Source: Marinilabilia salmonicolor JCM 21150 (GTDB lineage Bacteria > Bacteroidota > Bacteroidia > Bacteroidales > Marinilabiliaceae). From it: a DNA stretch of 56,703 bases. Made by a program: the position numbers and the translations under genes. Of this stretch, positions 3,162 to 52,696 are shown piece by piece. The stretch lies in NCBI RefSeq assembly GCF_000259075.1, contig NZ_AJKI01000067.1, positions 1 to 56,703 on the forward strand. Reading direction: 5' to 3'. The stretch's first letter is position 1. Each line of letters starts with the position of its first letter. A model generated the notes under the pieces. It saw only the letters and a list, made by a program, of their open reading frames with translations, was not told the DNA's origin and did no database searches.

Positions 3162-6017
3162 CTAGTCCAAAAATCCTTTTTTATAAATCTGTGTCGCCTC
3201 ATCCACCAAATAAACAATCGATTTATAGGAAATTCCGCTGTGCAGGGATAAACCTATTTCACAGGTACGACTGGTGCTGTATCCACACTCCACATCATCG
3301 GGCAGTTGACGCCTCAGAGGTTTAAGCGCTGATGCATTCAGTTCGGGATGTGTAAACCCACGATCGCCCGCCCAACCACAACAACCAACTTCATCCGGAA
3401 CAATCACCTCTTCTGCACACATCTGTGCTACCTGAAGCAATTTACTTTCCAACCCCATTTTTGTACTACTGCAGGTAGTGTGTATGGCAATTTTTTTATT
3501 TAGTTTTTTAAAATGAAGCCTGTCCGGAAAGTATTTCAAGATAAACTCCACCGGTTCATAAAGATCCAACTCGGAAGAAAGCGTCTCCTTCATCCTCAAT
3601 AAACAGGGACTCATATCGCAATAAACCGGATATTTCCCGTTTTGGGAAGCTTTAAGCAATGCCTGGTCAAGTTCTCTGGCTTTTCGCAATCCCTGTTCTT
3701 TAAAACCTTTACTATCGAAAGCCATTCCGCAGCAAAGATTCTTCAAACCCTCAGGAAAAACTACATTAAACCCGGCTTTCTCCAGTAATTGACGAGTCTT
3801 CTCCACCACCGTCATCTCTTTGCCATAATCGACCGACTTACCCATGGTACGATTGATACAGGTGGGAAAATAAACCACTGTATCCTCCGTTAAGTCATGC
3901 CCATTAGACTCATAGACTGAAAAAGAGGGTCCTCCATGGGGCATATGCGGGTTCCATAAAGGAATGCGATGCCCCGACACTTTAAACAAAAAACTGGAGA
4001 CACCAGACATAACCTTAGTCCCCAAAACCCTATGAGCACCACCAACAACTCCCAGAACAAATCTTCCTGACAAAGTAACCGAACTCATATGATTTGCAAT
4101 CCAGGAGGCAACCTTGTTGCCCGTAGAAGAATTGCCATCAAACCGGAGATCTTTAATTAATTTCCCGGTGTTTATATCCACAGGACATGCCAACTCACAA
4201 AGGCCATCGGTAGCACACGTGGCATCGCCATCGTAGTTGTATCTCTTTTTAAGCTCCGAAAGTCTGTCTTTGTCCTTGCCCTCCAAGGACAATCGATGCA
4301 TTTCGCGATAGGCCACAATGCGTTGTCTGGGCGTAAGTGTGATCCCACGGGAGGGACAATTGATTTCACAAAATCCACACTCTATGCAATTGTCTATTAA
4401 ATCATGAGCAACAGGAAGAGGTTTCAGATTTTTTAGATGAATCTCCGGATCGTCATTTATTATGACTCCGGGATTAAGTATTCCACGAGGATCAACCACT
4501 TCCTTAATCTTTTTCATCAGATCATAAATGTCCTCCCCCCATTCCTCTCTTACAAAAGGAGCCATATTACGTCCGGTACCGTGCTCGGCTTTCAAACTTC
4601 CGTCATATTTGTGAACCACCAACTTCACCAAAGCCTCCATAAATTGGCGGTACCTTTCCACACCAGACCGGTTGTTAAAATCGGGCATCATGACAAAATG
4701 GATATTGCCATCCAACAAATGCCCCCAAATCACATACCCCTCATACCCGAACTCTTCTATAAGTTTTTTAAGATCTACCAAAGCATCCCCCAGAACATCA
4801 GCCCTGAAAGCCAAATCTTCAATAATACAGGCCGTACCTTTGGGACGGGACGCCGCGGCAGAAGTAAAAAGCCCCTTGCGAACTTTCCAGAGCCTGTTAT
4901 ACTCATCCTTATCAGTAGTAAATTCCACCGGGTAAACCGTATCAAAAAAGCTCAGTGCCTTTTCAATTTCCTTCATCCGGATGTTTAGCAAATCCTCCTC
5001 TTCCGCAGATGTTTCAACCAACAAGGCAACAACCTCTTCATCCAGCGTTTTGAGCACCGGAGGCATCCCAGACTTATTTTCAACAGAGCGCAAAGCATTA
5101 CGATCCATCAGTTCGGCAGCACTTACACTACAGCCCCGCAATGGCAGAATAGCCTCACAAGCCGATTTGATATTTTTAAAAAACACCATGGAAGTAGCTT
5201 TTAAGCCATATTCTCTGACTGTTTTAAAGCTTACTTCAGAAATAAAGCCCAAAGTCCCCTCCGACCCAACCATCAGATGCTGAAGAACATCAATGGGATC
5301 TTCAAAGTCAATGAGTGAATTAACGCCATATCCACAAGTATTTTTTAATTCAAACTTATGCTGGATTTTCTGCCTGACTGCTTCATTTGATTTAGCAGAT
5401 TTACTAAGAGCCGTTAACTGACTCAACATGTCGGAGTGAGTTTCTTCGAAGCATCTCCGCGATTCAAGATCACCGGTATCAAGCACTGTGCCATCAGCCA
5501 AAACCATACGCATGCTTTCAACCGTATTATAACTATTGTACCGTATTCCATAACTGGCTCCACTGGCATTATTGGAAACAATACCCCCGATGCGGGCCGA
5601 ATTGATTGAAGCCGGACTTGGCCCCAGCTTATGGCCATAGGGTGCTAAACGAGCATTTGCAAGCCCTCCGGAAATTCCGCTTTGAAAACTGGCATATTTT
5701 CCGTCCGGGGAAATTTTAAAATCCGAAAAGCCGTCACCAGTATCAATAAGTACTGAGTTGGTTATGGTTTGTCCACTTAAACTGGTGCCCCCTGATTTAA
5801 AGGTGACGGGGATATTATACAGAGAACAAAGTTGAAGTACGCCCACCATCTCATATTCTGATTCAACTTTTATTACCATATCCGGAATCAGCCTGTAGAA
5901 GCCGGCATCGGTCCCTTTGGTAAGGGTATATAAAGCGTCGGTATAGACTCTGGATGCCGGTAGAATACCGTTTAACTGTTGCCGGAACCTCTGCAAAGTA
6001 GTCTTATTATTTCCCAT
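3162..6017 (-). CDS. FAD/Fe-S D-lactate dehydrogenase (Dld-II/GlcD-GlpC type fusion)
   Basis: A 951-residue flavin oxidoreductase that probably oxidises D-lactate to pyruvate at the inner face of the membrane and passes electrons to quinone. The FAD-binding PCMH domain is at about 40-230 (TFKSGGTSLSGQ, then GGIVSNNASGASYG). The FAD-oxidase C domain is at about 240-530 (HLLDGNIHFVMMPD, EHGTGRNMAPF). Two 4Fe-4S motifs lie at about 541 (CIECGFCEINCP) and 600 (CATDGLCELACP). Two CCG motifs lie at about 762 and 881. This layout matches Shewanella Dld-II; E. coli YdiJ, a 2-hydroxyglutarate enzyme, is the main alternative. MurQ in this window makes D-lactate from MurNAc-6-P, which favours D-lactate. 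The gene has its own promoter with an operator-like site (6162-6190), behind a terminator that closes the SusD gene upstream. Confidence 0.85.
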   Translation of the reverse strand: MGNNKTTLQRFRQQLNGILPASRVYTDALYTLTKGTDAGFYRLIPDMVIKVESEYEMVGVLQLCSLYNIPVTFKSGGTSLSGQTITNSVLIDTGDGFSDFKISPDGKYASFQSGISGGLANARLAPYGHKLGPSPASINSARIGGIVSNNASGASYGIRYNSYNTVESMRMVLADGTVLDTGDLESRRCFEETHSDMLSQLTALSKSAKSNEAVRQKIQHKFELKNTCGYGVNSLIDFEDPIDVLQHLMVGSEGTLGFISEVSFKTVREYGLKATSMVFFKNIKSACEAILPLRGCSVSAAELMDRNALRSVENKSGMPPVLKTLDEEVVALLVETSAEEEDLLNIRMKEIEKALSFFDTVYPVEFTTDKDEYNRLWKVRKGLFTSAAASRPKGTACIIEDLAFRADVLGDALVDLKKLIEEFGYEGYVIWGHLLDGNIHFVMMPDFNNRSGVERYRQFMEALVKLVVHKYDGSLKAEHGTGRNMAPFVREEWGEDIYDLMKKIKEVVDPRGILNPGVIINDDPEIHLKNLKPLPVAHDLIDNCIECGFCEINCPSRGITLTPRQRIVAYREMHRLSLEGKDKDRLSELKKRYNYDGDATCATDGLCELACPVDINTGKLIKDLRFDGNSSTGNKVASWIANHMSSVTLSGRFVLGVVGGAHRVLGTKVMSGVSSFLFKVSGHRIPLWNPHMPHGGPSFSVYESNGHDLTEDTVVYFPTCINRTMGKSVDYGKEMTVVEKTRQLLEKAGFNVVFPEGLKNLCCGMAFDSKGFKEQGLRKARELDQALLKASQNGKYPVYCDMSPCLLRMKETLSSELDLYEPVEFILKYFPDRLHFKKLNKKIAIHTTCSSTKMGLESKLLQVAQMCAEEVIVPDEVGCCGWAGDRGFTHPELNASALKPLRRQLPDDVECGYSTSRTCEIGLSLHSGISYKSIVYLVDEATQIYKKGFLD

Positions 6018-6161
6018 ATATTCAAATAGTTAACTAATGCCTTACAGCAAACACATTATTGTTCGAGCTTATTTTGGCCACAAAACAAGGCAGTCAAAAC
6101 CCCGAAAGAATTACTTTCAATAAATCATTATTGGATTGTCACTAAAAGTTAATCACTTGAA

Positions 6162-6190
6162 CAAAGTTATAATACTTATTATATATTACA
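6162..6190 (-). promoter_or_regulatory. Promoter with overlapping GntR-type operator for the D-lactate dehydrogenase
   Basis: On the minus strand TAACTTTG (6162-6169) matches the -7 box TAnnTTTG. TGTAATATA (6182-6190) is one base off the operator core TGTAATACA and lies where the -33 box should be. A repressor bound there would block the polymerase. Confidence 0.5.
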
Positions 6191-6220
6191 TCTGTATAAG
6201 TTTGTTTTTTTGACCTTAAA

Positions 6221-6251
6221 GAAAAAAGAGCTGCCTTAAAAAGACAGCTCT
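6221..6251 (-). terminator. Rho-independent terminator after SusD 1
   Basis: Minus strand: stem AGAGCTG / CAGCTCT, loop of 11 nt, then a T-rich run. It lies 25 bp past the SusD stop and separates the SusC/D operon from the dehydrogenase gene. Confidence 0.8.
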
Positions 6252-6275: not shown

Positions 6276-7961
6276 TTACTCAGCCCACCATAGCTTGGTG
6301 TCTTGTACATCCGGTCCCTGTCGACCAATAGCAACCTCCAGATTGTCTAAATTTCGGGAATACGCATTGGTTCCGTATCGCATACGCTGCGGGTAATGTC
6401 CCGAGATATCCCCAAAACCAAATATATCGGAATCTGAGACTCCGTCAGCCAAACTGGCAGGATAGCCCAAATCTCTGACCACTGCCCAGGCATGGAAGCC
6501 TTCGGTATAGTAAGCCAGCCATCGTTGAATCGCTATTTTCTCCAGATCATTGGTCCCATCCAGGGTTGCCATGGATGAATTGGCCATGAAATCATCAATC
6601 TCAGCAGGATCAACACCCCACAAAAGCATGGCCTGGCGCAGTCCCATCTGGTAGTGAGCATTGGCATCACCAGAGCCCACTCCACGAACAATAGCTTCTG
6701 CCTGAAGAAGATGAGATTCTGCCGTTGTGACAACAATCTCAGGCGCAATTGGCTCTTCTTCGCCTTTATTTTGAATAATATATTGGGCAGGTTTACTAAA
6801 TAAATCATACCGGGCATAGTTGCCCATTTCTCCCCTCAATCGCACAGGCTGCCCAACATAAAAAGTATCAGGATCCATCGAAATTACCGATTCTCCGTTT
6901 TCATTGCTGGCTTCGGTATAAACGGCTCCGGCAGCATCAAGAGCTGATAAAATAAAGTTTTTCCGCTTCAAATACAAAGCTTCGTCGTCACTATCTGGCC
7001 AAGGAATGGTTATTTCGCCCCCAACCGCCGGTTGGGCATATTTCGACAGCCTGGGGTCATCATAGTTCTGCAAATAATTTATCACTTCCTGGCTAACTGT
7101 CCAATCCGACCCTGCACCGAAATTATACCAAACATCTCCATAGGCAGCACTGTTCCACTGACTTATTTCAATATCCTTTGACATAAGCGCATTGTCCCCT
7201 TCATCAGCAAGCAAAGGGGCAGATAATGCTTCATTAATTGCAGGTTGAGCAAAGTCAGCACCGGGAGCGCCAAGTGCCTTAAGCGCAATACGTAGTTTAA
7301 TAGTATTGGCCAGACTTTTCCATTTTTGCAGGTCACCACCATAAAACAAATCATTCTCGCCCAGATCTTCATCGGTCTCCCCCGTACTTGTTGCATCACC
7401 AATAGCATTCATCGCAGCATCCAGGTCATTGATTATTCCCTGATAGATGGCCTGATGTGTGTCAAATTTTGGCAATAGAATATCCAATTGCCCCGTTTCG
7501 GAATAGGGAATTTCTCCAAAAGTATCGGAAAAATATTCATAGAAAAGACTTTTTAAAACCAAAGCCGTAGCATGCGCCAATGGGTTTTCACGATCGCCTC
7601 CGTCACCTGTTACCTGAAGAAAAGTAACAATAGTTCCGGTATAACCCTCGAAATAATCCCAGGCTGCATCGGTATATCCTCCACTGTAGCTATAACCCAA
7701 CTCACCGGACCACCATGAAGAGGAGTGTCCAAAACAAAAATGACCTGCATATCTGTCGGCATGAATCAAGTGCGCTCTCCAGTAGGGGTACCGATCCGGA
7801 GCCATCAACTTAACCTGACTCTTGGTAATAAAATACCGGGCTGAGATATCATCTCCACTAATGGCAGATGGATTTTGGTTAATTTCAGTAAAATCATCTG
7901 TACACCGAGGAAGTGTTACACAGGCCAAAATCCCGATTAATATGAACTTATATATTTTCAT
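6276..7961 (-). CDS. SusD/RagB-family surface lipoprotein (pair 1)
   Basis: A 561-residue SusD-like protein that would cap the neighbouring SusC barrel and bind its substrate at the cell surface. The leader ends at Cys20. The mature start CTDDFTEINQNPS is typical of the SusD-like-2 group, though Arg before the Cys is an unusual lipobox. The body holds the helical repeats of the family (ATALVLKSLFYEYFSDTFGEIP near 150; QRWLAYYTEGFHAW near 500). It starts 21 bp after the SusC gene, clearly one operon, and is closed by a terminator. It lies next to the peptidoglycan enzymes, so a muropeptide or glycan fragment is the likely ligand. That is inference from position only. Confidence 0.9.
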   Translation of the reverse strand: MKIYKFILIGILACVTLPRCTDDFTEINQNPSAISGDDISARYFITKSQVKLMAPDRYPYWRAHLIHADRYAGHFCFGHSSSWWSGELGYSYSGGYTDAAWDYFEGYTGTIVTFLQVTGDGGDRENPLAHATALVLKSLFYEYFSDTFGEIPYSETGQLDILLPKFDTHQAIYQGIINDLDAAMNAIGDATSTGETDEDLGENDLFYGGDLQKWKSLANTIKLRIALKALGAPGADFAQPAINEALSAPLLADEGDNALMSKDIEISQWNSAAYGDVWYNFGAGSDWTVSQEVINYLQNYDDPRLSKYAQPAVGGEITIPWPDSDDEALYLKRKNFILSALDAAGAVYTEASNENGESVISMDPDTFYVGQPVRLRGEMGNYARYDLFSKPAQYIIQNKGEEEPIAPEIVVTTAESHLLQAEAIVRGVGSGDANAHYQMGLRQAMLLWGVDPAEIDDFMANSSMATLDGTNDLEKIAIQRWLAYYTEGFHAWAVVRDLGYPASLADGVSDSDIFGFGDISGHYPQRMRYGTNAYSRNLDNLEVAIGRQGPDVQDTKLWWAE

Positions 7962-7982: not shown

Positions 7983-10900
7983 TTAAAACTTAAGATTAAC
8001 ATTGAACCCCAAACTTCTGCTTGATGGCAGCGGATTATAAAGGATACCCTGAGAGAAACTACTGGTACTGTAACTCAACTCGGGATCAAAGTTGTCAACC
8101 TCTTTGTAAAGGAAGAATAGATTCCGGGCGACGACGCCAACGGAAGCAGACTTAACAAAGCCATTTCCTAACAGAGTGTTTGGCACATTCCAAACCAGAG
8201 AGGCCTCTCTCAGTCTTATATTTGTCTGATCATAAACATACTCCGAGCCAATGCCAGCAACACTGCCCCAGTACTGCTGTGCAGTAATTCTGGAATCATT
8301 AGCTACATAACTGCCATCTTCCTGTTCAACAACAGCATCTAAAACAACCCCATCTTCACGATACTTCAGGGTGCGCTCGCCAGCACCGCTTGCATCAAGT
8401 GAAGCATCGGTTCCTGAATAAACCTCGCCACCTATGCGGGCATCAATTAAAAACCTGAGCGTAATATTTCTGTATTTCAAAGTATTTGTCAATCCACCAA
8501 CCCAATCAGGCTGATAATTTCCAAGTTTCACTTTTTCGGTAGTGGCTCTTGGACGGCCGATTTCGTCAACAACAAGTTCACCATCATCATTTCTCAGCCA
8601 ATCGGTTCCGTAAATATCACCAAATCCACCACCAACTGTTCCCTGAACGATAATATTTCCACTATTGGTTTCACCGAAAGGATAAGTTTCTGTCCCTGGA
8701 ATCAACTCATTAAGTTCATTTTTATTTGTGGAAAAATTAACCGATAGGTCCCACGACAAATCAGGAAGATCCAACGGTGTGCCCCCCAACAAAATCTCAA
8801 AACCTCTGTTTTCAATTTCACCTACATTGCTAACACGGGAAGAGTATCCTGTTGATGCTGAAATAGGAACAGCGAAAATCAAATCCTGGGATTTGATATT
8901 ATAAAAACTAAAATCGGTATAAAGTCTGTTATAGAAAAACCTGAATTCGCCTCCAAATTCAAGAGAGGTAACTTCTTCCGGCCGAAGGTCAGCATTATTT
9001 TTTTGACTGCTTCGGCTCATAGTTGTAAGCCCAAGATAAGAACCAGAAGCATCATCAATATAGTAAATATCATTCAGCATATAAGGATCCGTGTCGTTAC
9101 CTACCTGCGCCCAGCTTAAACGAAGCTTCGAATAGGTAAGTGCAGGTGTTTCTATATCCAGAAGTTCATTTAATAATACAGAGGTACTAAGTGATGGATA
9201 AGAATAAGAACGACTGTCCTCAGGTAAGCTGGATGACCAATCATTTCGAAGTGATCCCTCGAGATAAAACCAGTTGTCAAAACCCAAACTGGCAGTACCA
9301 TAAAGCGAATTAATCTTCTTCTTGCTTAATGGAGAATATCCATAAAAGACCAGCTCAGAAATAGAAACAGGAGGTCCCTCAGGAATCCGGAAATCTTCCC
9401 CGTTAATCCGCATACTCCTGTTATCTGTGTACATATGGTTTCCACCAAAAGTAGCATTCAGGTTAATATGTTCAGTAACATCATGTTCGAACATAAATAA
9501 AAAGTCGGCATTGGTTTCACTGGTTTGGTATTGATTATAACTAAAGCGTCCCCGATCATAATACCAGTGTCCGTATGCCTCAAGGTTTTCAATATTTTGT
9601 TTTACGAAATCGGATCCAACTCTGACGAAGGCAGAGAGCCAATCCGTAAATTCATATTGAACCTTTACAAATCCTGTAAAACGATTCCGCCAGTCCTCTC
9701 TGCGGTCGTTGAACATCATCCAGTATGGATTGGCCCCCAAAGAAGAATGAGAAACAGCCCGCAATGTTTCCGGATTCTGATAATCGCGATAGTCGTCAAT
9801 TGCAGCATTCCGTGGAATGGAATACACATAAGCCATCACCCCTTCGGTACCAAGTTTAGGGCGGTTTTCTCCATGTTGATGAAAATAAGTAGCTTTAGCA
9901 TCGATGGTCAATTTATCACCCATTTTGGCAAACCCCCTAAGATTGAAATTATGCCGGTCAATGCCGGAGTTAGGCAAAATTGAAGTGGAATGCGTGTTGG
10001 TATAAGAAAACCTGACATTTGCGTTTTCCACTCCCCCTTCGAGGGCCAGGTTGGTAATCAAAGTCTGCCCAGTTTCAAAAAAATCTTCAACATTAGACGG
10101 CTGTGCAGTATAAGGTTGAGCTTCTCCGGTCCAGTAGAGCTTTTGAGAACCATCCATCATTGGCCCCCAACTGCCTCCGGCCTCTTTCAAGTCCAGAAGA
10201 TTATCTGGTACATATCCCTGTGTCCCCTGTCCATATTTATTTTGGTATTCAGGCAACACCAATGGACGCTCAAATGTCAGGCTTGAAGAAACTGAAACCC
10301 CTAATCCCTTCTGAGCAGAGCCTTTTTTGGTAGTAATCAAGATTACCCCGTTAGCGGCACGGCTACCATAAAGGGCTGCAGCATTTGGCCCCTTCAATAC
10401 AGAAATGGATGCCACATCGTCCGGGTTAATATCAGAAATCCCGGTACCATAATCTGTTTTCGAATAAGATCCCACATCATTGGAATTAGCTGTCCCATAA
10501 CCAGAATTGTCAATGGGAACCCCATCCACTACGTAAAGAGGTTGGTTGTTCTGGGAAAGTGAGTTATTCCCACGAATAACTACACGGGAACCTCCTCCCG
10601 GGCCAAACGCCCCCTGAGTAATAGTAACACCAGCAACTTTACCAGCCAGGGAATTCATTACGTTTGTTTCTTTTACTGTCGACACTTCATCGCTTTGAAC
10701 TTCAGTCACAGTATAACCAAGAGATTTTTTTTCACGCGAAAGCCCCAATGCAGTGACAACCACCTCATCCACATCAAAGACAGTGGATTCCATCTGAATA
10801 TTGTAAGTACCAGGTGTGCCGGGAACAATTTCCTGCTTGGCAAACCCAATAAACGAAAAAACAACGGTTGCTTCTTCGGAAATACTTAATGAATACCTGC

Positions 10901-11087
10901 CATCCAGATCGGTAATGGTTCCATTGGTGGTACCTTTCTCAACTACCGAAACCCCGGGAATAGGTTCACCGTTGGAACTCTCGGTTACTACTCCTGAAAT
11001 CTCAATTTGCTGAGCAGCAATAAATCCGGCATACAACAACAAAAGCGTTGTAATGAACCATTTTTTCAAAAAAAGCTTCTTTTTCAT
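7983..11087 (-). CDS. SusC/RagA TonB-dependent outer-membrane transporter (pair 1)
   Basis: A full-length 1034-residue TonB receptor. The signal peptide ends at about residue 25. A carboxypeptidase-regulatory-like domain is at about 28-105 and the plug at about 115-255 (GVTITQGAFGPGGGSRVVIR, then ISVLKGPNAAALYGSRAANG). The rest is beta-barrel ending in NVNLKF, with the terminal Phe used in barrel assembly. There is no STN domain, so it is not a sigma-linked transducer. It is paired with the downstream SusD and imports a ligand with TonB energy. No clear -33/-7 promoter was found in the 275 bp upstream, so it may be partly read from the NamZ/serine hydrolase genes. Confidence 0.93.
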   Translation of the reverse strand: MKKKLFLKKWFITTLLLLYAGFIAAQQIEISGVVTESSNGEPIPGVSVVEKGTTNGTITDLDGRYSLSISEEATVVFSFIGFAKQEIVPGTPGTYNIQMESTVFDVDEVVVTALGLSREKKSLGYTVTEVQSDEVSTVKETNVMNSLAGKVAGVTITQGAFGPGGGSRVVIRGNNSLSQNNQPLYVVDGVPIDNSGYGTANSNDVGSYSKTDYGTGISDINPDDVASISVLKGPNAAALYGSRAANGVILITTKKGSAQKGLGVSVSSSLTFERPLVLPEYQNKYGQGTQGYVPDNLLDLKEAGGSWGPMMDGSQKLYWTGEAQPYTAQPSNVEDFFETGQTLITNLALEGGVENANVRFSYTNTHSTSILPNSGIDRHNFNLRGFAKMGDKLTIDAKATYFHQHGENRPKLGTEGVMAYVYSIPRNAAIDDYRDYQNPETLRAVSHSSLGANPYWMMFNDRREDWRNRFTGFVKVQYEFTDWLSAFVRVGSDFVKQNIENLEAYGHWYYDRGRFSYNQYQTSETNADFLFMFEHDVTEHINLNATFGGNHMYTDNRSMRINGEDFRIPEGPPVSISELVFYGYSPLSKKKINSLYGTASLGFDNWFYLEGSLRNDWSSSLPEDSRSYSYPSLSTSVLLNELLDIETPALTYSKLRLSWAQVGNDTDPYMLNDIYYIDDASGSYLGLTTMSRSSQKNNADLRPEEVTSLEFGGEFRFFYNRLYTDFSFYNIKSQDLIFAVPISASTGYSSRVSNVGEIENRGFEILLGGTPLDLPDLSWDLSVNFSTNKNELNELIPGTETYPFGETNSGNIIVQGTVGGGFGDIYGTDWLRNDDGELVVDEIGRPRATTEKVKLGNYQPDWVGGLTNTLKYRNITLRFLIDARIGGEVYSGTDASLDASGAGERTLKYREDGVVLDAVVEQEDGSYVANDSRITAQQYWGSVAGIGSEYVYDQTNIRLREASLVWNVPNTLLGNGFVKSASVGVVARNLFFLYKEVDNFDPELSYSTSSFSQGILYNPLPSSRSLGFNVNLKF

Positions 11088-28904: not shown

Positions 28905-29079
28905 AAATACTTGGATTTTAATGATTAACAATGTACTACCTAAAAAACAGAATTAGTCTTACCAACGGAGTGAGTTGGCTTAACAGTCCGTTTTCAAACA
29001 TTCATTTTTATTTTAAAGCAGGAATTCCATTAGCCTGAAACACCTTCTTAATCTTAAAAAGTAAAAACAAGTGTATTCT

Positions 29080-36024: not shown

Positions 36025-36080
36025 AGTTTTTAGTAATGAGATTGAGAATGAGATTGAGGCTGTGGTTAAGATTAAAAAAG

Positions 36081-36240
36081 GAAGCTGTCTCAAAAGTACA
36101 AAACATTAATGGCTTGTCATGTTGATCGTAAGCGAAACATCTGTATATCAAACAAAAAGATTCTTCGACAAGCTCAGAATGACATCAAATTTGGACTCTG
36201 GTGGCTGCCTCTTGCCAAACACCGCAGAGACTGTGTCTCA
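36081..36240. repeat. Palindromic intergenic repeats between GHL10 and symporter genes
   Basis: Unit 36156-36184 contains TTCTTCGACAAGCTCAGAATG, a form often seen in Bacteroidota intergenic repeats. Unit 36111-36142 looks like an inverted variant (CATGTTGATCGTAAGCGAAACATC). Flanks GAAGCTGTCTC (36081) and GAGACTGTGTCTC (36227) also pair. Non-coding. Confidence 0.45.
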
Positions 36241-37810: not shown

Positions 37811-37997
37811 AGCCCCCTAAATCCCCCCAAGGGAGACTTCAAAAAGGGTCTGAAAGCTTAGAAGGCCTGTTTTGAGATTTTATTTAGGACAAATCCTCAG
37901 AAATTTATTTTTCACATATGATAATTTAACCTCATCCCCACAGTCCCCCTCCAGGGGGATTTAGGGGGCTATTCTCCCTTTGGGGGATTTAGGGGGC
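37811..37997. repeat. Inverted and direct copies of a C/G-run palindromic repeat, reaching into the permease gene
   Basis: AGCCCCCTAAATCCCCCC (37811-37828) is inverted relative to GGGGGATTTAGGGGGCT at 37954-37970 and 37982-37998. The last copy codes the tail of the AmpG-like protein, ending KKSPLNPPKGE. Such SPLNPPKG tails mark a repeat common in Bacteroidota genomes. Confidence 0.65.
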
Positions 37998-44005: not shown

Positions 44006-44971
44006 TTATTCTTGAAATATCTTCTTTACCAATTCCCAGTCGTTTTTATTCAAGGTTACCTGCTTAAAGATATCCTCTACAAGATCGGTGTTTAATTTTT
44101 CAAAATCTTCCTCTCTTGGCGTAATGAGGACTCCCCCAAAATCAACAGAAGCCGGGCTCAACACAATTTGCTCCCCGCCTTCAGCATAAAACTGACGCGG
44201 ACGGTGTCCCTGACGGGGAAACACAACCAAACGCCAGGTGCCTTTATCCCACGAACACAGAATATTAAGCATAGGTTCCTCCTCATTTCGTTGAATTGTA
44301 TCCAGAAAACGGTAAACCCGGTTAAACCAACATTCTATCTCATCGGGTTGCTCTCCTTCAAAAACCAACGTCTTACGCAAATAGTTATCCACGCAGAATA
44401 CACGTACATCCCTGCGATCAATCAACAATGACTTTCGTGGATGAAGCTGAAACTCTTCCTCAATGGGCATAAAGCCTTTATTGCCCGCCTGAAAGTGAAA
44501 ATGATCAGGAGCACTGGCACCACATCTGGGGCCATTATAGAAAAGAACGAATCCAGGGAGTTCCCGGGCCAGCATCATCATATCCGACAACCTTCCTTTG
44601 ATACGCTGGTCGGTATGCCTCACATGAGGAATGGTAAGATGCCTTGGAAAGATGGGAAAGGGATTCACCAAAATGAGGTAATCATCCCGAAAAGCCACTT
44701 TATTTTGTTCCGGAGGTAAATTGTCCTCGCAAAGAAAACATTTCCGTTCCTGAATAGATTTGGCATCCACTTTGGCAGCTGAAGACCTGATGCGTGCTGG
44801 ATTGAACTGCACTCTCATCTCTGTCGCAGAACCAAATTCAAGAGAACGAATTTTTACTTCACTCAACCCTTCATAATTCCCTTTGGCCATTGGCCAGTTG
44901 ACCATCTGTTCATCAATCAGTTGATCAACTTTTTCCTGCAAAGAGGCATTCATGGAAACATCTTTCGACAT
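44006..44971 (-). CDS. DUF4922 protein, HIT-like (GalT/Ap4A phosphorylase branch)
   Basis: A 321-residue cytosolic protein. The motif ASAPDHFHFQAG near 150-160 is a H-x-H-x-Q triad as in galactose-1-phosphate uridylyltransferase, Ap4A phosphorylase and GDP-L-galactose phosphorylase. CFLCEDNLPPEQ near 77-88 and NPFPIFPRHLTIPHVRHTDQ near 105 also resemble that branch. So a nucleotidyl transfer or phosphorolysis of a nucleotide-sugar is likely; the substrate is unknown. It is separated by 2 bp from the GT2 gene upstream and 12 bp from the SpoIID-like gene downstream, so the three are surely co-translated. Confidence 0.75.
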   Translation of the reverse strand: MSKDVSMNASLQEKVDQLIDEQMVNWPMAKGNYEGLSEVKIRSLEFGSATEMRVQFNPARIRSSAAKVDAKSIQERKCFLCEDNLPPEQNKVAFRDDYLILVNPFPIFPRHLTIPHVRHTDQRIKGRLSDMMMLARELPGFVLFYNGPRCGASAPDHFHFQAGNKGFMPIEEEFQLHPRKSLLIDRRDVRVFCVDNYLRKTLVFEGEQPDEIECWFNRVYRFLDTIQRNEEEPMLNILCSWDKGTWRLVVFPRQGHRPRQFYAEGGEQIVLSPASVDFGGVLITPREEDFEKLNTDLVEDIFKQVTLNKNDWELVKKIFQE

Positions 44972-44973: not shown

Positions 44974-46446
44974 CTACTTTCTGTTTTTAGCAATCCGGGC
45001 CCACAATTCCATGGTTCTCACCCTGTCTTTGTACAAATTATGGTTGTTCATTTTAACAATATCCAAAGAAGCATCTGAGTTATCTTCCCAGCGGCGACAC
45101 ATATAAAGTGACCTGTATATGCGTCCGATTTGATAATCACGTGAAATCGCCAATCCTACTGCGTAGTCTTCTCCGTAGCTCACATTAGGCACCCGGATTT
45201 CTCTCAACGCAGGCGTATAAAAAGCACGGGGAGCACCCAGTCCGTTGATGCGCAAAGCATTGTTCCGCCCATTATCGGGGGTCCATTCTTTGTGGTCGAT
45301 CAATCCGGGAGGTATCTCTTCCAGTTTAAAATTCACCATCTGATAGGAACCGATTACCATAGCGCAGTTTTGTTCATAAAATGCATCAACAACAGTTTGC
45401 ATAACGGAGTCATCAGCATATAAGTCATCACTATCAAGCTGGATGGCGAACTTACCACAAGACTCATGCATAATGGCCATATTCCAGCAGCCTCCAATGC
45501 CAAGGTCTTTGCGATCGGGAATAACATGAATCAAACGATCGTCTTCATCCGCCAGTTTTTTCAATATGTCGGTTGTCCCATCATCCGAATGGTTGTCGAC
45601 AATAATTAAATTGAATTTAAACGAAGTGTTTTGGCTGAAAACAGATCTTACCGCATCTTCGATGGTTTTGGCGCGATTACGCACCGGAACAATCACTGAG
45701 GCCTCCACCGGGAAATCCGATTCATCAAACTTTACTTCTTCGAATTCCGGCTTAAGATATCCGCCTATAGCTTTTAGATGTTCGGTACAGGCAACTTCCA
45801 TTTCAATCTGAACGTCCCGGTTTTTAGGATCCACATAGTCGAAAATCTTTTCCCCTGATTTACGTGTATCCGTTTCCATTTCGGTATATAGAAATTCCGG
45901 CAAACGGAAGAGCTTATGATTCTGAGACACTTTGAGTCGAAGGTCATACAGTCCCGCAAATTTATAGTCGGCTTTCATTTTGTCTGCGGCTTCTTTTACC
46001 ACTGCCGACGGGAAAAGCAGCAACGAACCAAAGTTAAAGTCGTCTCTTAAACTTCCGTCCTGATAATCAATTACCGGATTTTGCATCCTATTACCTTCCT
46101 TCAATGCAAAGTAATCGGAGTAGATCATTCCCGCCCCGGTATATTCAGCAGCCTGAATCATGCGTTCCAGGGACAAAGCACCCAATTTCAAAGGAAGCGA
46201 TTTGGCATACAGCAAAACATGTGAAGAAGCCTCAGCTCTTTTTGCTATTTCTTTCACCATATGAGTGGAATTAAGAACCGGCACTTCAAACGAGTCAACG
46301 CCTTCCGGCAACTCTGCTCCCTTACTTTCAGGGGTGATCATTACATAAATTCCGTCAACCAGACCAACTGCTTTCAGTTCATCAATGGTTTGCTTAAGAT
46401 CGGCCGGTTCGGCCACCGGCAAAAAACATGAAATCTTGTTATGCAT
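44974..46446 (-). CDS. Double GT-A (GT2-family) glycosyltransferase
   Basis: A cytosolic protein of about 490 residues. I start it at the Met at 46446 (MHNKISCFLPVAEP); a start at 46479 would overlap the amidase gene by 14 bp. The second half is a classic GT2 domain: ASVIVPVRNRAKTIEDAVRS, LIIVDNHSDDGT, FAIQLDSDDLYADD with the DxD-type metal site near residue 337-340, and YGEDYAVGLAISR. The first half has a similar but weaker fold (AAEYTGAGMIYSDYFALKEG, LRDDFNFGSLLLFPSA). There are no membrane helices. Acceptor and donor are unknown. The DUF4922 partner could supply or recycle the nucleotide-sugar. Confidence 0.8.
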   Translation of the reverse strand: MHNKISCFLPVAEPADLKQTIDELKAVGLVDGIYVMITPESKGAELPEGVDSFEVPVLNSTHMVKEIAKRAEASSHVLLYAKSLPLKLGALSLERMIQAAEYTGAGMIYSDYFALKEGNRMQNPVIDYQDGSLRDDFNFGSLLLFPSAVVKEAADKMKADYKFAGLYDLRLKVSQNHKLFRLPEFLYTEMETDTRKSGEKIFDYVDPKNRDVQIEMEVACTEHLKAIGGYLKPEFEEVKFDESDFPVEASVIVPVRNRAKTIEDAVRSVFSQNTSFKFNLIIVDNHSDDGTTDILKKLADEDDRLIHVIPDRKDLGIGGCWNMAIMHESCGKFAIQLDSDDLYADDSVMQTVVDAFYEQNCAMVIGSYQMVNFKLEEIPPGLIDHKEWTPDNGRNNALRINGLGAPRAFYTPALREIRVPNVSYGEDYAVGLAISRDYQIGRIYRSLYMCRRWEDNSDASLDIVKMNNHNLYKDRVRTMELWARIAKNRK

Positions 46447-46465
46447 ATCTTGATTTTTTTCGTTT

Positions 46466-49400
46466 TTAATTATTCTCATTCTGAAAAAACTGTAAGATCT
46501 GTTTCATCAATTCAGCCCTCTTCTTTTCTGATGGAATGGCTTCAAAGGGAAACCCAAGGATAACACTCTGATAATCGCCTGAAAAGCCTACTCCTGCACA
46601 GACATTGTTACCATCGTACCTGAAAATTCTGAAAGCATCGTCTCCCACGGGCTCAATGCCGTCGGGCGATTCAACTTTATAAATATCGGGATGATATTCT
46701 ACATTATAGCTGAGCGATGGCAGGAACAGAGAAGAAGCTTTATCTGTCACTTTCAGATTTCCCACATTGTCAGCATGATTGGTCATCCAACGAAAGTGCA
46801 AAACTTCTTTTAAAAATTCGATGGTGGTTGAATCATTGTTTTCCACAGCGTCAGTGCCTATGTATGCTCCGGAGATCAGGACATTTCCTCCGGACAAGAG
46901 GTATTTTTTCAATACCTCCCTTGTTCCCTGGCAAAAAAGCCTGTATTGTTTTTCATCTGAGTTGAATAGAGATTCGGTCCCTCTCTCTTCGCCATAGAGC
47001 AAATCAACAGCTTTGTAAGGTTCAACCTCAAAACCATCAGAAGCAAACACTTCATCACTTACCGAAACAAAGGAATAACCGGCATCGCGGATCGCTTTTC
47101 CGTGTGTAAATACAAAGTCGAAGTTATTACCGGGAATTATTTTCCCTTCCATGTCGGCATGACTGGCTCCATGCCCCGGACTGTCATCATCAAGCCACGG
47201 AGAGGAGCGGTCATAATCGTATTGTTTGCCTGTGTGGCTCATATCTCTGTTCCTGGGTACACCTTCATCCTCCCACCATGCTACTCCGGCAGTTTCTCCA
47301 TCCACAAATGCGGGTGGCCCCACTCGGTCAAATCCGTTGACTACCAAGACCAAATCATCAGAAGAGGAGTTCAGTGATACAGACAATGTTTCGCACGGAA
47401 AACTCTCTCCTCCCTCGTTTAAAGCAGTAACCTTAAAGCTATAAATAGTATCCCAATCAGGTAATTCAAGAACCATCGATGTATCTGAAGTAAACACCCC
47501 ATTGGAAAAACCATTGCCTTCAATTCTTTGGTAAACCTTGTAGCCGGAAGGAACTGCACTCTCTTCCAGAGGATCCATTACAGGTCTCCAGCTTAATCTT
47601 ACACTTTTTCCTCCTGGGTGTGTCAGAGAAAGATGATCGGGAGCCAGAGGCTTTATGATCGCCAGGCTCCCCTCTCGCACTGACAGGAAGCGCACCATCC
47701 CTTTATATATAGCTCTGGCAACGGTAAATTGAAACCGGGGATCAAGCCCGTATTTCATATCAGCCAGGTTTTGGTGAGACAACAACTCCAGCAACATGGT
47801 GGGCACATTAGGCCGATAAGCTTCGGAATACTGTTTGTCCCACATGGCCCGGCGCGTCCATTCATCGTTAAAGGTTAATCTGATATCAGACACAATTTGA
47901 GATTGAACCAAATCTGTCAAGTCGCGACTGGCCAGTTTTGATTTTCCATCCGGAAACCGGCCTTCATTCGTAACTGAACTGTAAATTCCAAGCGTTCCGA
48001 CAACGGAATCTCCCGGGGTAGTTCCGGCATCTGTATGAAAAGCAAAGGCCAGATCAATCGGAATATTCAACCCCTGGCATTCAGTCGCTTTGGTAGGCCC
48101 GTTGGGATTGCCCATCAGGTAATTCACCCATTCACCTCGCGACTGATAATCATCGTTGTAGTCATTCTTTTGCTCATTTAGGCTGTAAACAATTGAATCA
48201 GGCACTCCTGCATATTGTAACCAATACCTTCCGGCTTCCATCCACCGTGGCTTGCCACTTAGCTTATAAACGTAGGATACCGAATCGTTTATCTCCACCT
48301 CTGAATTTTCCGCATGATTATCATCCAGTGACCATTTTCTTTTGGTATAAGACTCTTCGGGACGCCTGGCAACATTGCCCATCCCTCCGCCAAAGCGAAT
48401 GGCATCAGTTGTCACCACCCCGATGGAATTGGATGGAACTTCTATCACGACAGATCCCGATTGTATATTTTTCCCTTTGGAAAAGTGGAAAGTTCCAAGG
48501 TAAACCCAAGTCCCGTAACCCATTTGCTGATTAAGTAAAAACCGGGTACTCCCTCCAGAATGATTAACACGATATGAAACATTGTCAAGTGCGCTCTCTA
48601 TTTTCCCATACGAAACATAAACAGCATACTCCCCTGCTTCAGGAATATTGGGTAAATAGGTGATGCTTGAAGAATTTTCATCCGAAGCTTGAACTTGCAT
48701 CCAGGTTCCCATTTTAAAAGGATTATCTCCATTAAATAAAGTATCCTTAATGGCAAAACCTTTTTCGCCAGAGCTCTCTATTTGACGGATTCCCTTGCCT
48801 ATGATTATCTCACTTCCTCCAGATGCCCCATCATTATCTACAATGACTTCATGAATTTGAGTATCTCTTTCCCTGGGCACAAAAACGTTCGCCCCGGCAT
48901 CCTCCAACATAGGCACAAGATAATTGCGCGTAAAAGCAAATGGGTAAATGTCCTCCACGGTTCCAAACAACCTGGCTCTTTGCCATTCCCACCGATCCAG
49001 TTCTGACTCATAATAATAACCATGACTCGCCCACAAAGCAATATTGTGATTGGTCAATCCAGAGTTAAAAACTCCCTGATTTACCCTTTTTACCAGGGGA
49101 TCTCTTAATCCTATATCTTTCATCCGGAAGGAGTCCACCGAAATATGTTCCCTGAAGTACAACGGAACATATTTTTCAAGAGTCTCCCCCTTACAAAACA
49201 ATTGAATTTCATAATCTTTGAACCTCCTGCCTGTAAGATTTCTAAGAGCGTATTTCAAAGAAGTTATCCATGCCTCTCTTACCGGAATCATTGCAACATT
49301 GGGAGAAAGAAAAACATCCAGTTCTTCATCGGATGCATTTACTTCAACTGAATCAACATGCATTGGCCCCATGTACTGATACGGATGTAAAAGATCAAAT

Positions 49401-49534
49401 CTTTCATTGATTCTTTTCATCGCTTTATTTTCCAGCCGGTGTTCTTTTCTTTCCGACTGAGAAATCAATTCAAATGGAAAAACCATTAATAATATAAGAA
49501 TTAACACACTCTTAAGTATCAAAAAATTCTTCAT
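46466..49534 (-). CDS. N-acetylmuramoyl-L-alanine amidase split by golvesin-like domain, with Fn3 and unknown C-terminal domain
   Basis: A 1022-residue exported protein (signal 1-26). Amidase_3 residues are found in two blocks: His171 (WASHGYYYE) and Glu194 (GTVEDIYPF), then His500 (AFAFHTDAG) and Glu583 (MLLELLSHQN), matching the His-Glu-His zinc set and catalytic Glu. Between them, about 235-385, lies a golvesin C-terminal-like beta domain (ITYLPNIPEAGEYAVYVSYG; GVVTTDAIRFGGG). Fn3 is at about 625-735, then a domain of unknown type (735-1022). Databases often name such proteins xanthan lyase, which the residues do not support. It is the first gene of the right block and would remove stem peptides from glycan. 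Confidence 0.8.
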   Translation of the reverse strand: MKNFLILKSVLILILLMVFPFELISQSERKEHRLENKAMKRINERFDLLHPYQYMGPMHVDSVEVNASDEELDVFLSPNVAMIPVREAWITSLKYALRNLTGRRFKDYEIQLFCKGETLEKYVPLYFREHISVDSFRMKDIGLRDPLVKRVNQGVFNSGLTNHNIALWASHGYYYESELDRWEWQRARLFGTVEDIYPFAFTRNYLVPMLEDAGANVFVPRERDTQIHEVIVDNDGASGGSEIIIGKGIRQIESSGEKGFAIKDTLFNGDNPFKMGTWMQVQASDENSSSITYLPNIPEAGEYAVYVSYGKIESALDNVSYRVNHSGGSTRFLLNQQMGYGTWVYLGTFHFSKGKNIQSGSVVIEVPSNSIGVVTTDAIRFGGGMGNVARRPEESYTKRKWSLDDNHAENSEVEINDSVSYVYKLSGKPRWMEAGRYWLQYAGVPDSIVYSLNEQKNDYNDDYQSRGEWVNYLMGNPNGPTKATECQGLNIPIDLAFAFHTDAGTTPGDSVVGTLGIYSSVTNEGRFPDGKSKLASRDLTDLVQSQIVSDIRLTFNDEWTRRAMWDKQYSEAYRPNVPTMLLELLSHQNLADMKYGLDPRFQFTVARAIYKGMVRFLSVREGSLAIIKPLAPDHLSLTHPGGKSVRLSWRPVMDPLEESAVPSGYKVYQRIEGNGFSNGVFTSDTSMVLELPDWDTIYSFKVTALNEGGESFPCETLSVSLNSSSDDLVLVVNGFDRVGPPAFVDGETAGVAWWEDEGVPRNRDMSHTGKQYDYDRSSPWLDDDSPGHGASHADMEGKIIPGNNFDFVFTHGKAIRDAGYSFVSVSDEVFASDGFEVEPYKAVDLLYGEERGTESLFNSDEKQYRLFCQGTREVLKKYLLSGGNVLISGAYIGTDAVENNDSTTIEFLKEVLHFRWMTNHADNVGNLKVTDKASSLFLPSLSYNVEYHPDIYKVESPDGIEPVGDDAFRIFRYDGNNVCAGVGFSGDYQSVILGFPFEAIPSEKKRAELMKQILQFFQNENN

Positions 49535-49588
49535 CTTTTCATCCTTATAAAATTTACTTCTTAAAGTCAGATGGATCTCGAAATCCTT

Positions 49589-49934: not shown

Positions 49935-49938
49935 AATT

Positions 49939-49947: not shown

Positions 49948-49980
49948 TCTTATATAATATCAAAAACCAAACTTTTTTTA

Positions 49981-49988
49981 TATATTTG
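49981..49988 (+). promoter_or_regulatory. -7 box for murK-murQ
   Basis: TATATTTG matches TAnnTTTG. No TTTG lies at the proper distance upstream, so the promoter may need an activator or be weak. Confidence 0.45.
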
Positions 49989-50085
49989 CGTTTAACAAAA
50001 ACAACAACAAACAGGGATCTTAAACCAATGGAATTATATAAGAGAATCCATAATCCATCAAGAACAAAAACTCAAAAACACAACC

Positions 50086-50094
50086 TATAATACA
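50086..50094. promoter_or_regulatory. GntR-type operator copy just before murK
   Basis: TATAATACA, one mismatch to TGTAATACA, followed by TC as in the other copies. It ends 10 bp before the start codon, where a bound repressor would block elongation. Confidence 0.45.
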
Positions 50095-50104
50095 TCATTC
50101 TATT

Positions 50105-50941
50105 ATGATATTAGTGGCCGACAGCGGATCAACCAAAACAACATGGTGCCTCCTGGACAAAAAAACAGGAAAGAAAGAACTAATTCAAACACCAGGAATA
50201 AACCCTTTCTACCAGGATGAAGATACTATTATAAAGGCGCTCGAAAAGGATTTTACATCCTCACAAAGAAATTTCGAAGCTATCTATTTTTATAGTGCCG
50301 GATGCAGCAATCCGGTTATCAGCAAAGTTGCATACGGAGCGCTCAACAATTTCTTCTGTGCATCAACCATAGAGGTGGCAAGCGACCTCATGGCCGCCGC
50401 CCACGCACTGTGTGGGACTACCGAAGGAATTGCGTGCATTTTAGGAACCGGCTCCAACTCATGTCATTACAATGGTAAAGAGGTCATCGAAAACACACCT
50501 CCCCTGGGATTTATTCTTGGAGATGAAGGCAGCGGTGCAGTTATTGGCAAAAAGCTACTTTCAGACATCCTGAAAAAACAACTCCCTGAACATGTTTGTA
50601 ACAAATTCTTTAACAAATATAAAACAGACAGCATTGATATTCTGAATAACATCTACAAAAAACCCTTTCCAAACCGATACGCAGCAGGTTTTACAAGATT
50701 TATCGCTGAACACATCAGTGAACCTTCCCTACAAAAACTGGTACTTGCATCCTTTGAAGAATTCATAACCAGAAACATATTACAATACCAGATGGCCACA
50801 AAACTACCAGTGCATTTTACCGGCAGCATAGCCTACTACTTCAAAGATCTGTTGTATGAAATTCTTGAAAAGCACCAATTAAAACGAGGAACAATTATTA
50901 AAGATCCAATAGACGGATTAATTGATTTCCATCTCAAATAA
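50105..50941 (+). CDS. MurNAc/GlcNAc kinase, BadF/BadG family (MurK-like)
   Basis: A 278-residue cytosolic ASKHA-fold kinase. LVADSGSTKTTWCLLD at the start is the first phosphate loop; IACILGTGSNSCHYNG near 117 is the second; LGFILGDEGSGAVIGKKLL near 137 and the C-terminal VHFTGSIAYYF complete the set. In Tannerella forsythia MurK phosphorylates both MurNAc and GlcNAc at C6. Here the murQ gene starts 41 bp later, so MurNAc-6-phosphate is the expected product. There is no PTS importer in the window, so the kinase is needed. It is controlled by a region with two operator copies. Confidence 0.85.
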   Translation: MILVADSGSTKTTWCLLDKKTGKKELIQTPGINPFYQDEDTIIKALEKDFTSSQRNFEAIYFYSAGCSNPVISKVAYGALNNFFCASTIEVASDLMAAAHALCGTTEGIACILGTGSNSCHYNGKEVIENTPPLGFILGDEGSGAVIGKKLLSDILKKQLPEHVCNKFFNKYKTDSIDILNNIYKKPFPNRYAAGFTRFIAEHISEPSLQKLVLASFEEFITRNILQYQMATKLPVHFTGSIAYYFKDLLYEILEKHQLKRGTIIKDPIDGLIDFHLK

Positions 50942-50982
50942 CCTCATCATACAAGTAAAGAACCTCAAAAAGAACAAAAGAA

Positions 50983-51816
50983 ATGTCGGATAATAAATAT
51001 ACCCTGAGCATTACAGAATCACCTTCCAGATTTCAAAATCTTGAAAAAATGGAAGTCGCCGACCTGATTCAAAACATCAACCGGGAAGACGCAAAAGTAC
51101 ATGAAGCGGTAAAAAAAGCATTGCCACAAATTGAAAAATTAATCGTTCGAATTGTGGAAAGAATGAAAAAAGGAGGAAGAGTATTTTACCTTGGAGCAGG
51201 GACAAGCGGCCGCCTGGGCGTACTGGATGCATCTGAACTCCCCCCCACCTTTGGTGTCCCTGACACATTGGTAATCGGATTAATTGCAGGAGGCGATATT
51301 GCACTAAGGAATGCCGTGGAAGATGCAGAGGATGATCCCAAAATGGCCTGGCAGGAACTCAACAAACATAACATAACCCAGCTAGACACAGTTATTGGGA
51401 TCGCAGCTTCAGGAACCACCCCCTATGTCATAGGTGGCATCATGGAAGCAAGAAAAAGCGGAATACTCACAGGCTGCATCACCTGCAATCCGAATTCTGA
51501 GATTGCCAAAGCTGCAGAATTTCCTATTGAAGCAATTGTAGGACCTGAATTCATTACTGGCAGCACCCGTCTTAAAGCAGGAACCGCTCAGAAGATGATT
51601 CTCAACATGATAACAACCACCCTGATGATAAAGCTGGGTAAAGTAAAGGGAAACAAAATGATTAATATGCAGTTGACCAACAAAAAATTAATTCAGAGAG
51701 GAACCATAATGCTAATGGAAGAACTTGGTCTGAAAAAAGAAGATGCTCAGGCACTCCTGATTAAAAATGGTTCCGTAAAAAAGGCCATTGATGCACACAA
51801 CAAAACCAAAAAATAA
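50983..51816 (+). CDS. murQ: N-acetylmuramic acid 6-phosphate etherase MurQ
   Basis: A 277-residue SIS-domain enzyme that cleaves the lactyl ether of MurNAc-6-P to GlcNAc-6-P and D-lactate. Signatures: ESPSRFQNLEKMEVADLIQ at the N-terminus, YLGAGTSGRLGVLDASELPPTFG near 70, GIAASGTTPYV near 137, and the family stretch FITGSTRLKAGTAQKMILNMI near 193. It is a little shorter than E. coli MurQ (298), with a shorter C-terminal helical tail, as is usual in this phylum. The D-lactate is probably used by the dehydrogenase at 3162-6017; GlcNAc-6-P goes to NagA/NagB, which are not in this window. Confidence 0.96.
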   Translation: MSDNKYTLSITESPSRFQNLEKMEVADLIQNINREDAKVHEAVKKALPQIEKLIVRIVERMKKGGRVFYLGAGTSGRLGVLDASELPPTFGVPDTLVIGLIAGGDIALRNAVEDAEDDPKMAWQELNKHNITQLDTVIGIAASGTTPYVIGGIMEARKSGILTGCITCNPNSEIAKAAEFPIEAIVGPEFITGSTRLKAGTAQKMILNMITTTLMIKLGKVKGNKMINMQLTNKKLIQRGTIMLMEELGLKKEDAQALLIKNGSVKKAIDAHNKTKK

Positions 51817-51896
51817 AATCATTGGCCGCCACATTTATTTCCATACTTCCTGTTATCAACTGCTACTATCTGTGGAGTCAATGAAAGCGATGAATC

Positions 51897-51924
51897 AAAC
51901 TTGCCTGGTCATCAGGCAAGTTTT
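51897..51924. terminator. Bidirectional terminator between murQ and gntR
   Basis: A perfect 11-bp stem, AAACTTGCCTG / CAGGCAAGTTT, with 5-nt loop and T-run. It serves murQ from the left and may also serve the regulator gene from the right. Confidence 0.8.
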
Positions 51925-51967
51925 AAAGTATCAGGAAAAATAATTTCCAGTAGTGAAGCCACGGTGG

Positions 51968-52696
51968 TTATTTAAAAACTTTTTTAAGATAACGCTCATA
52001 TACTTCATGATTCCTAATCACAAGCTTTTCTGTTTCAGCAAAAGCATCATCTTCATCCCTCTCCTTAACCGCCTCCAGAATTTTTTTCTGGGCCTCAATA
52101 GTAAATTCTTTTTCTCCTTCAACATTCGCATAAATAAAATTACGCATACGGGGTAAAAGAGAATAAATGGGCTCCAGACTAATTATAATAATTGGATTCC
52201 CGGTTGATTTGGCCAGGCTCATGTGGAAACGGTTGATGATATCCACTTCCTGCTGAGTGTTGTCGGGATCACAACTTACGAGCTCTTCAATTATCTGTTC
52301 CAGAATTTTTATATCCTCATCTGTCCTATTCCTCGCAGCCAGTCGTGAAATTTGCGGCTCAAAAATACGACGAACATCAATAATCTGAGAAATAAGATCG
52401 GAATCGAAACTCAGGTCATAGTATAGATTAAGAGATTTAATTGCATCCTCTATCTTTATCTCAGACACATACATCCCACTTCCTTTTCTAATCTCTATCA
52501 AACCACGGGCACTTAAACGCCTCAATGCCTCCCTAAGTGCCGTTCTACTAACTCCAAAGAGTTCGCAAAGTTCCTTTTCAGAAGGCAACTTGGCTCCCGA
52601 AAGCAGTTTCTTCTGCCGGATAGCCTCTTCAACTTTTCTTTCGATCTTCTGACTTAAGGTTTGCGTAGTACCTATCTTGCTAAAAATATCGTCCAT
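51968..52696 (-). CDS. FadR-type GntR transcriptional regulator
   Basis: A 242-residue repressor. The winged HTH is at about 12-78 (AIRQKKLLSGAKLPSEKELC, FGVSRTALREALRRLSARGL, EIRKGSGMYVSE). The FCD ligand domain is at about 90-225 with its metal-type residues in DVRRIFEPQISRLAARN, INRFHMSLAKSTGN and RNHEVYERYL. It is convergent with murQ. FadR-type proteins bind short palindromes of the form T-x-GT-N-AC-x-A; the TGTAWTACA sites near six promoters in this window fit. MurNAc-6-P, GlcNAc-6-P or a stem dipeptide would be sensible effectors. This pairing is inference, as no binding data can be read from sequence. Confidence 0.9.
   Translation of the reverse strand: MDDIFSKIGTTQTLSQKIERKVEEAIRQKKLLSGAKLPSEKELCELFGVSRTALREALRRLSARGLIEIRKGSGMYVSEIKIEDAIKSLNLYYDLSFDSDLISQIIDVRRIFEPQISRLAARNRTDEDIKILEQIIEELVSCDPDNTQQEVDIINRFHMSLAKSTGNPIIIISLEPIYSLLPRMRNFIYANVEGEKEFTIEAQKKILEAVKERDEDDAFAETEKLVIRNHEVYERYLKKVFK

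Follow-up and report, generated by a model that had tools for sequence, protein, structure and literature searches.

The 56,703-base window analysed here is an entire contig (C67) of the 4.98-Mb genome of Marinilabilia salmonicolor JCM 21150. It carries a murein (peptidoglycan) locus in which salvage genes of the type known from Tannerella forsythia lie together with three SusC/SusD pairs, numbered 1 to 3 from the left. We consider it probable, at roughly two chances in three, that Marinilabiliaceae-type bacteria have enlarged a T. forsythia-type core with SusC/D importers and additional periplasmic enzymes, which would serve the uptake of murein fragments. The original prediction, made from the sequence alone, had described a near-complete murein utilisation locus with outer-membrane uptake. 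All the families it listed were found within the span it gave when the window proteins were searched with Pfam and NCBIfam profiles, on which our family assignments are based, and its view of the locus as one for murein processing receives good support from the conserved linkage with the salvage operon of T. forsythia. Its claim that the SusC/D pairs import murein fragments divides by pair: comparative genomics supports it for pair 2, more weakly for pair 3, and gives it no support for pair 1.

In T. forsythia, a single transcript comprises genes labelled 'xanthan lyase', two gtf, lytB, ampG, ybbC, murT, murK and murQ, as given in the available text of two reports (PMC5388701, PMC7670621). The T. 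forsythia locus in our collection (L114) shows the same gene order, and all nine genes of this operon (Tanf_08345-08385) have counterparts in the window, with 44-65% identity: 44% for the amidase, 61% for GT2, 48% for DUF4922, 58% for SpoIID, 60% for NamZ-A, 45% for MurK, 65% for MurQ and 65% for AmpG over the 422 of 620 residues that could be aligned (a long insertion in the AmpG-like protein is possible). The NagX-like gene at 31190-32299 is regarded as the MurT counterpart because of its place and its similarity to the T. forsythia gene that occupies the murT position (46% identity across 360 of 369 residues). The right half of the window (37969-51816), together with NamZ-A and the MurT-like gene, is a Bacteroidales murein-salvage core of the T. 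forsythia type. The two loci differ in organisation, since the T. forsythia operon is one transcript ending at murQ, whereas in the window namZA, murK and murQ lie on the plus strand and the others on the minus strand. Moreover, the 21-kb locus L114 has no SusC/D, whereas three pairs are linked to the core in the window. The core itself is ordinary for Bacteroidales, as indicated by how often its genes occur in the 34 SusC-free named loci of full length: ampG 29, murK 29, spoIID 28, amidase 28, GT2 28, MurT-like 25, murQ 25, DUF4922 23 and dld 20. In many Bacteroides loci dld lies between namZA and the murT-like gene.

The adjacency of susC and susD by which a polysaccharide utilisation locus (PUL) is recognised occurs in three complete pairs (6276-11087, 14525-19553 and 24293-28931), and enzymes for one substrate, murein, are linked to them, a linkage that is conserved for pair 2. 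It should be noted that 84 SusC candidates were seen in the genome at first look, 11 of which were scored, giving an expectation of about one per 57 kb. Three pairs in the window are thus not striking alone, and SusC gene density was rejected as evidence by itself. The weight rests on the arrangement kept in relatives, not on the pair count.

For this, each SusD served as the sole query, which kept murein genes from influencing the choice of hits. SusD2 homologues were found in 8 of 60 genomes of the family, including the window, with 8 further matches in 198 genomes at the level of the order. Three or more murein-set genes lie in the stretch of each of the seven other family homologues, and five of the eight order-level matches (L215, L216, L219, L220 and L042) have at least two. 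In the strict total, 12/15 homologues have at least two murein-set genes per 18-20 kb, in families f1, f20, f59 and f93. By comparison, no murein-set gene was present in any of 40 random stretches, six of them with a SusC, which were drawn not genome-wide but from 15 contigs of known length, all NamZ-bearing. The linkage differs from that of the 40 random stretches with a Fisher p of 1.0e-9 and from that of the six with a SusC with a p of 0.0015, the rows not being independent. In six cases (L042, L053, L060, L062, L065 and L067) the counted stretch had first been chosen around NamZ-A, while the SusD2 hits in them come from the SusD2 searches. The linkage is illustrated by the gene orders murK-susC2-susD2-namZB-sss-amidase in L215 and susC2-susD2-ghl10-namZB-sss-gt2-duf4922-ampG in L219.

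Pair 2 is therefore a likely importer of murein fragments, as judged from its gene neighbours. More tentatively, and at slightly under even odds, SusC2/SusD2 would be a dedicated subfamily of murein-fragment importers found in a number of Bacteroidales families, and would convert a recycling operon into one for feeding on the walls of dead bacteria. The NanOU SusC/D system for sialic acid, as presented in the available text of PMC3969230, resembles pair 2 in that both would handle an acidic aminosugar; SusD2 matches NanU weakly (40.6 bits, cut-off 425), and pair 2 differs from that system in having murein genes as its window neighbours.

We also examined where SusC genes lie relative to NamZ-A. 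In relatives within the family, NamZ-A is divergent from a series nlpc-epimerase-SusC/D-NamZ-B-PBP4B-like-dld, the completeness of which varies. A SusC was found no further than about 20 kb upstream of NamZ-A in 10/14 genomes (three of the window's genus), compared to 6/40 of the random 20-kb stretches (Fisher p 1.9e-4). The window was left out of this count, as were genomes whose NamZ-A lies at a contig end and two genomes with partial, SusC-free upstream stretches (G057/L040 and G044/L043). When these two are restored the proportion is 10/16 (p 8e-4), and when counted by genus it is 8/12 (p 1.2e-3). Downstream of NamZ-A, a SusC was found in 2/15. Among 80 named loci, 10 have a SusC of at least 100 bits near NamZ-A, 34 full-length loci have none and 36 are cut short. 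On the NamZ-A tree the SusC label needs 4 changes; shuffled labels needed 10.0 on average and never so few in 500 shuffles. The 36 truncated loci, out of 80, in which no SusC was seen do not enter this count. Of the 11 SusC positives, counting the window, nine group on one side of the tree with Marinilabiliaceae, Prolixibacteraceae and Marinifilaceae; L138 and L140 are the SusC-positive loci outside it. The window's nearest row is L073, and the tree agrees with Marinilabiliaceae. The tree was preferred to a contrast between six 'environmental' loci and 34 others, in which the grouping was partly post hoc. The SusC/D pairs are an addition to the core in Marinilabiliaceae-type bacteria. In one relative of the same genus (L060/L061), identity to the window is as low as 51% for nlpc and as high as 99% for SusC2 and MurK, which suggests mosaic exchange.

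Several results weigh against uptake of murein by these pairs. Three of the order-level SusD2 matches have few or no murein-set genes nearby: none in L221, a GHL10 gene alone in L218, and only one in the stretch of L217 itself. For L217, a window-like GntR gene lies nearby and the adjoining stretch L222 holds NamZ-A, nlpc and the epimerase, which would add family f72. No SusC was found in any of the seven NamZ-B-centred stretches of the family, from genomes in which the search gave no NamZ-A. Moreover, 34 of the 44 judgeable named loci lack a SusC of at least 100 bits near NamZ-A (one of the 34, L101, holds a 92-bit SusC piece), indicating that the core can do without SusC/D. Five of the eight other SusD1 homologues have no murein-set gene in their stretch. 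Finally, none of the murein hydrolases in the window was seen to carry a surface-type signal.

The results for SusD1 bear on whether the SusC/D pairs import some other cargo, such as peptides or chitin-type or other aminosugars, and merely share a region with a murein operon. SusD1 homologues were found in 9/60 family genomes including the window, and three of the other eight are at a murein locus. Among those elsewhere, two lie beside an M49 peptidase gene (L154, together with a zinc dehydrogenase, and L155; Pfam). Given its link to peptide-type SusC/D systems, pair 1 is probably a general, perhaps peptide, importer, and a single murein system of all three pairs was rejected for pair 1 on these counts. 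In addition, the solved structures matched by SusD1 include BT_2263 (5fq6) and a chitin-binding SusD (8j0p), and the GH9, CE4 and GH20 enzymes could act on chitin-type sugars. As an account of all the pairs, other cargo is nevertheless unlikely, since pair 2 is recurrently linked to NamZ, MurK, amidase and AmpG in four families, or five with L217. For pair 3, SusD3 homologues were found in 4/60 family genomes including the window; of the three others, two are at a murein locus and one is beside dld near a contig end, so that pair 3 is a possible importer of murein fragments. The solved-structure matches of the SusDs did not reveal their ligand, and the predicted structures of SusD2 and SusD3 were unusable (mean predicted local distance difference test scores, pLDDT, of 42 and 49).

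The location of the enzymes bears on whether the murein is foreign, as the original prediction proposed, or the cell's own. An acidic run after the lipobox cysteine sends lipoproteins to the cell surface. With the cysteine found by a crude pattern and at least two acidic residues at +2 to +5 scored as a run, this surface-type signal was found in 19/25 SusD homologues, compared to 1/18 nlpc, 0/18 metallophosphatase, 1/12 NamZ-B, 0/3 PBP4B-like and 0/1 GH20 homologues. In the window, only the SusDs carry it; the other lipoprotein-like N-termini, judged by eye, are without the run. A periplasmic location is thus probable for the window's hydrolases, and the system would take up soluble fragments that stem from other organisms or from the cell's own turnover.

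This distribution, with enzymes that appear periplasmic or cytosolic, is what would be seen if the locus recycled the cell's own murein, the SusC/D pairs at most recapturing leaked fragments and foreign murein having no part. The wide occurrence of the core without SusC agrees with this (34/44 judgeable named loci, with ampG in 29/34 and murK in 29/34). We nevertheless regard recycling alone as improbable, because three importers, an enzyme resembling D-lactate dehydrogenase and an exported epimerase look catabolic. Moreover, in the relative L217 the second gene before SusCD2 is an Amidase_3 with a weak tail for the type IX secretion system (T9SS; 24.8 bits, cut-off 27); a clear T9SS tail (44 bits) is found on the gene that follows this amidase. 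These tails, which bear on L217 and not on the window, point to extracellular murein in that relative. Scavenging by an N-acetylmuramic acid (MurNAc) auxotroph, as in T. forsythia with its same core genes and a host that lacks MurA and MurB according to the abstract, is highly improbable and was rejected, its strict form being refuted, since the window's genome encodes MurA (448 bits) and MurB (220 bits), both over the family cut-offs, and the locus is not needed for MurNAc supply.

Under the reading we prefer, a salvage core extended for uptake, SusD2 at the cell surface would bind soluble murein fragments and SusC2 would carry them inward with TonB. Pair 3 would probably do likewise for a related fragment, and pair 1 would probably take up peptides. 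In the periplasm, the amidase and the NlpC/P60 endopeptidase would remove peptides, the epimerase would convert L-Ala-D-Glu, and the sugars would be split by NamZ-A and NamZ-B with GH20, perhaps also GH9-CE4. Transport of the products across the inner membrane may then fall to AmpG, the MurT-like protein and the SSS symporter, and MurK and MurQ would yield N-acetylglucosamine-6-phosphate (GlcNAc-6-phosphate) and D-lactate, the latter to be oxidised by the FAD/FeS enzyme. The gene content and the conserved linkage are observed directly; the activity of each enzyme is that expected from its family, and the cargo of the SusC/D pairs is deduced from linkage only.

The genes of the locus are listed in Table 1. 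The original prediction had passed over the MurT-like, GH9-CE4, PBP4B-like, metallophosphatase-propeller, DUF4922, GT2 and GntR genes and the set of ECF, FecR and SusC genes. This set, at 57-3096, consists of an ECF sigma factor, FecR and an incomplete SusC bearing an STN domain, the frame of which ends near the contig end. At the right contig end (53568-56213) are a tyrosine recombinase gene and an excisionase-like helix-turn-helix gene. The names D-lactate dehydrogenase, PBP4B, epimerase, AmpG and NagX come from NCBIfam matches under the curated cut-offs.

Table 1. Genes of the murein locus in the window, with the evidence for each assignment.
Feature	Position	Strand	Evidence
D-2-hydroxyacid (probably D-lactate) dehydrogenase, FAD/4Fe-4S	3162..6017	-	FAD-oxidase_C, FAD_binding_4, Fer4, CCG
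SusD1, SusD-like_2 type	6276..7961	-	PF12771
SusC1	7983..11087	-	TIGR04056 644 bits
PBP4B-like exported beta-lactamase-fold protein (serine hydrolase)	11363..13225	-	PF00144; PRK03642 154 bits (cut-off 385); SVTK at 279
NamZ-B exo-N-acetylmuramidase	13262..14431	-	NamZ_N 248 bits, NamZ_C 111 bits
SusD2 substrate-binding lipoprotein, murein-locus-linked	14525..16303	-	SusD_RagB; neighbours of homologues
SusC2 TonB-dependent transporter, SusD2 partner	16317..19553	-	TIGR04056 825 bits
Metallophosphatase + PQQ propeller lipoprotein	19598..21457	-	in 14/34 full-length named loci without SusC
Dipeptide-epimerase-like enzyme, exported, Tat-like signal	21507..22658	-	MR_MLE; N-terminus RRDFLK
SH3 + NlpC/P60 endopeptidase, lipoprotein	22669..23835	-	C267, H324 kept in at least 95% of 26 aligned rows
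SusD3	24293..25843	-	SusD_RagB
SusC3	25872..28931	-	TIGR04056 936 bits
NamZ-A exo-N-acetylmuramidase	29778..31001	+	60% identity to T. forsythia protein in ybbC place
MurT-like inner-membrane protein (NagX family)	31190..32299	-	NagX 156 bits, cut-off 480
GH20 hexosaminidase, lipoprotein-like N-terminus	32611..34212	-	GGDE at 335
SSS sodium symporter	34576..36093	-	namZ-B directly then SSS in three relatives (L215, L216, L219)
GHL10 glycoside-hydrolase-like protein	36263..37780	-	258 bits
AmpG-like muropeptide permease	37969..39831	-	TIGR00901 174 bits, cut-off 350
GH9 + CE4 deacetylase fusion, exported	39880..42342	-	catalytic-type residues kept in 6/6 aligned rows
SpoIID/LytB-like protein	42659..43993	-	TIGR02669 163 bits
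DUF4922 protein, core operon	44006..44971	-	215 bits
GT2-like protein, core operon	44974..46479	-	81 bits
Amidase_3-like protein with Golvesin_C domain inside amidase part	46466..49534	-	Pfam, below cut-off
MurK-like MurNAc kinase	50105..50941	+	solved relatives; MurNAc-site residues
MurQ MurNAc-6-phosphate etherase	50983..51816	+	TIGR00274 316 bits, over equivalog cut-off 302
GntR/FCD regulator, NanR-like	51968..52696	-	beside murKQ in L064, L066, L070; beside susCD2 in L217

Some of these assignments deserve closer description. The 1022-residue amidase falls under the Pfam cut-off (about 22-24.9 bits compared to 27). Its residues H171, E194, H500 and E583, presumably those of the amidase zinc site, are each kept in at least 95% of 36 aligned rows, window and T. 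forsythia included, and the Golvesin_C domain sits between E194 and H500. The solved chains nearest to the MurK-like protein are 1zbs and 1zxo, both uncharacterised proteins, then 8oqw (E 2.2e-75), which was deposited as 'ATPase' and which, on the basis of its length of 283 residues, we take to be T. forsythia MurK (TfMurK). Matches to chains named N-acetylglucosamine kinase are weaker (about 1e-60). According to the available text of PMC10465942, the MurNAc site of TfMurK comprises D95, N119, D141, P134, L135 and a small residue at 94; the MurK-like protein retains D94, N118, D140, P133, L134 and S93 at these positions. It departs from TfMurK at S133 (P132), T94 (S93), F35 (Y36) and I69, which is at a gap. 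In the SpoIID-like protein, E125 is kept in at least 95% of 61 aligned rows, which include the first 60 homologues among the matches listed; the protein has this conserved glutamate and no evident signal peptide, and is perhaps cytosolic. Homologues of the GH9-CE4 fusion are present at core loci in L061, L064, L068, L080, L083, L119 and L133. This putative enzyme could deacetylate and then split GlcNAc-MurNAc.

A murein PUL with SusC/D is already known in kind, and the putative SusC2/SusD2 subfamily is the new lead. For comparison with earlier work, we take GH171 to be the NamZ family. A PUL of about 27 kb with two susCD pairs has been reported for a Urechidicola symbiont (Flavobacteriaceae) of Idas mussels and, in the available text (PMC10199937), it shares with the window susCD pairs, murQ, ampG, an epimerase (there an L-Ala-D/L-Glu epimerase), GH171 and a sodium co-transporter; it also has nagB, ampD, dacA, GH3, GH18 and GH10, and the likeness is one of gene content alone. 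In Petrimonas mucosa, peptidoglycan use was inferred from lysozyme-type enzymes, as stated in the available text of PMC7768429. The earlier remark that murein SusC/D systems are little described is fair, yet it has to be qualified by this published locus with two SusCD pairs. No experimentally tested murein SusC/D was found among the papers listed in the literature searched, with subscription papers mostly outside its scope.

Murein makes up a notable share of dead bacterial matter, and the outer-membrane uptake of its fragments by environmental Bacteroidota is little studied. SusD2 is a clear candidate for murein-fragment binding, and the system has two other putative members in the MurT-like gene and the GH9-CE4 fusion. 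Moreover, loci with and without SusC/D make the question of recycling versus feeding testable.

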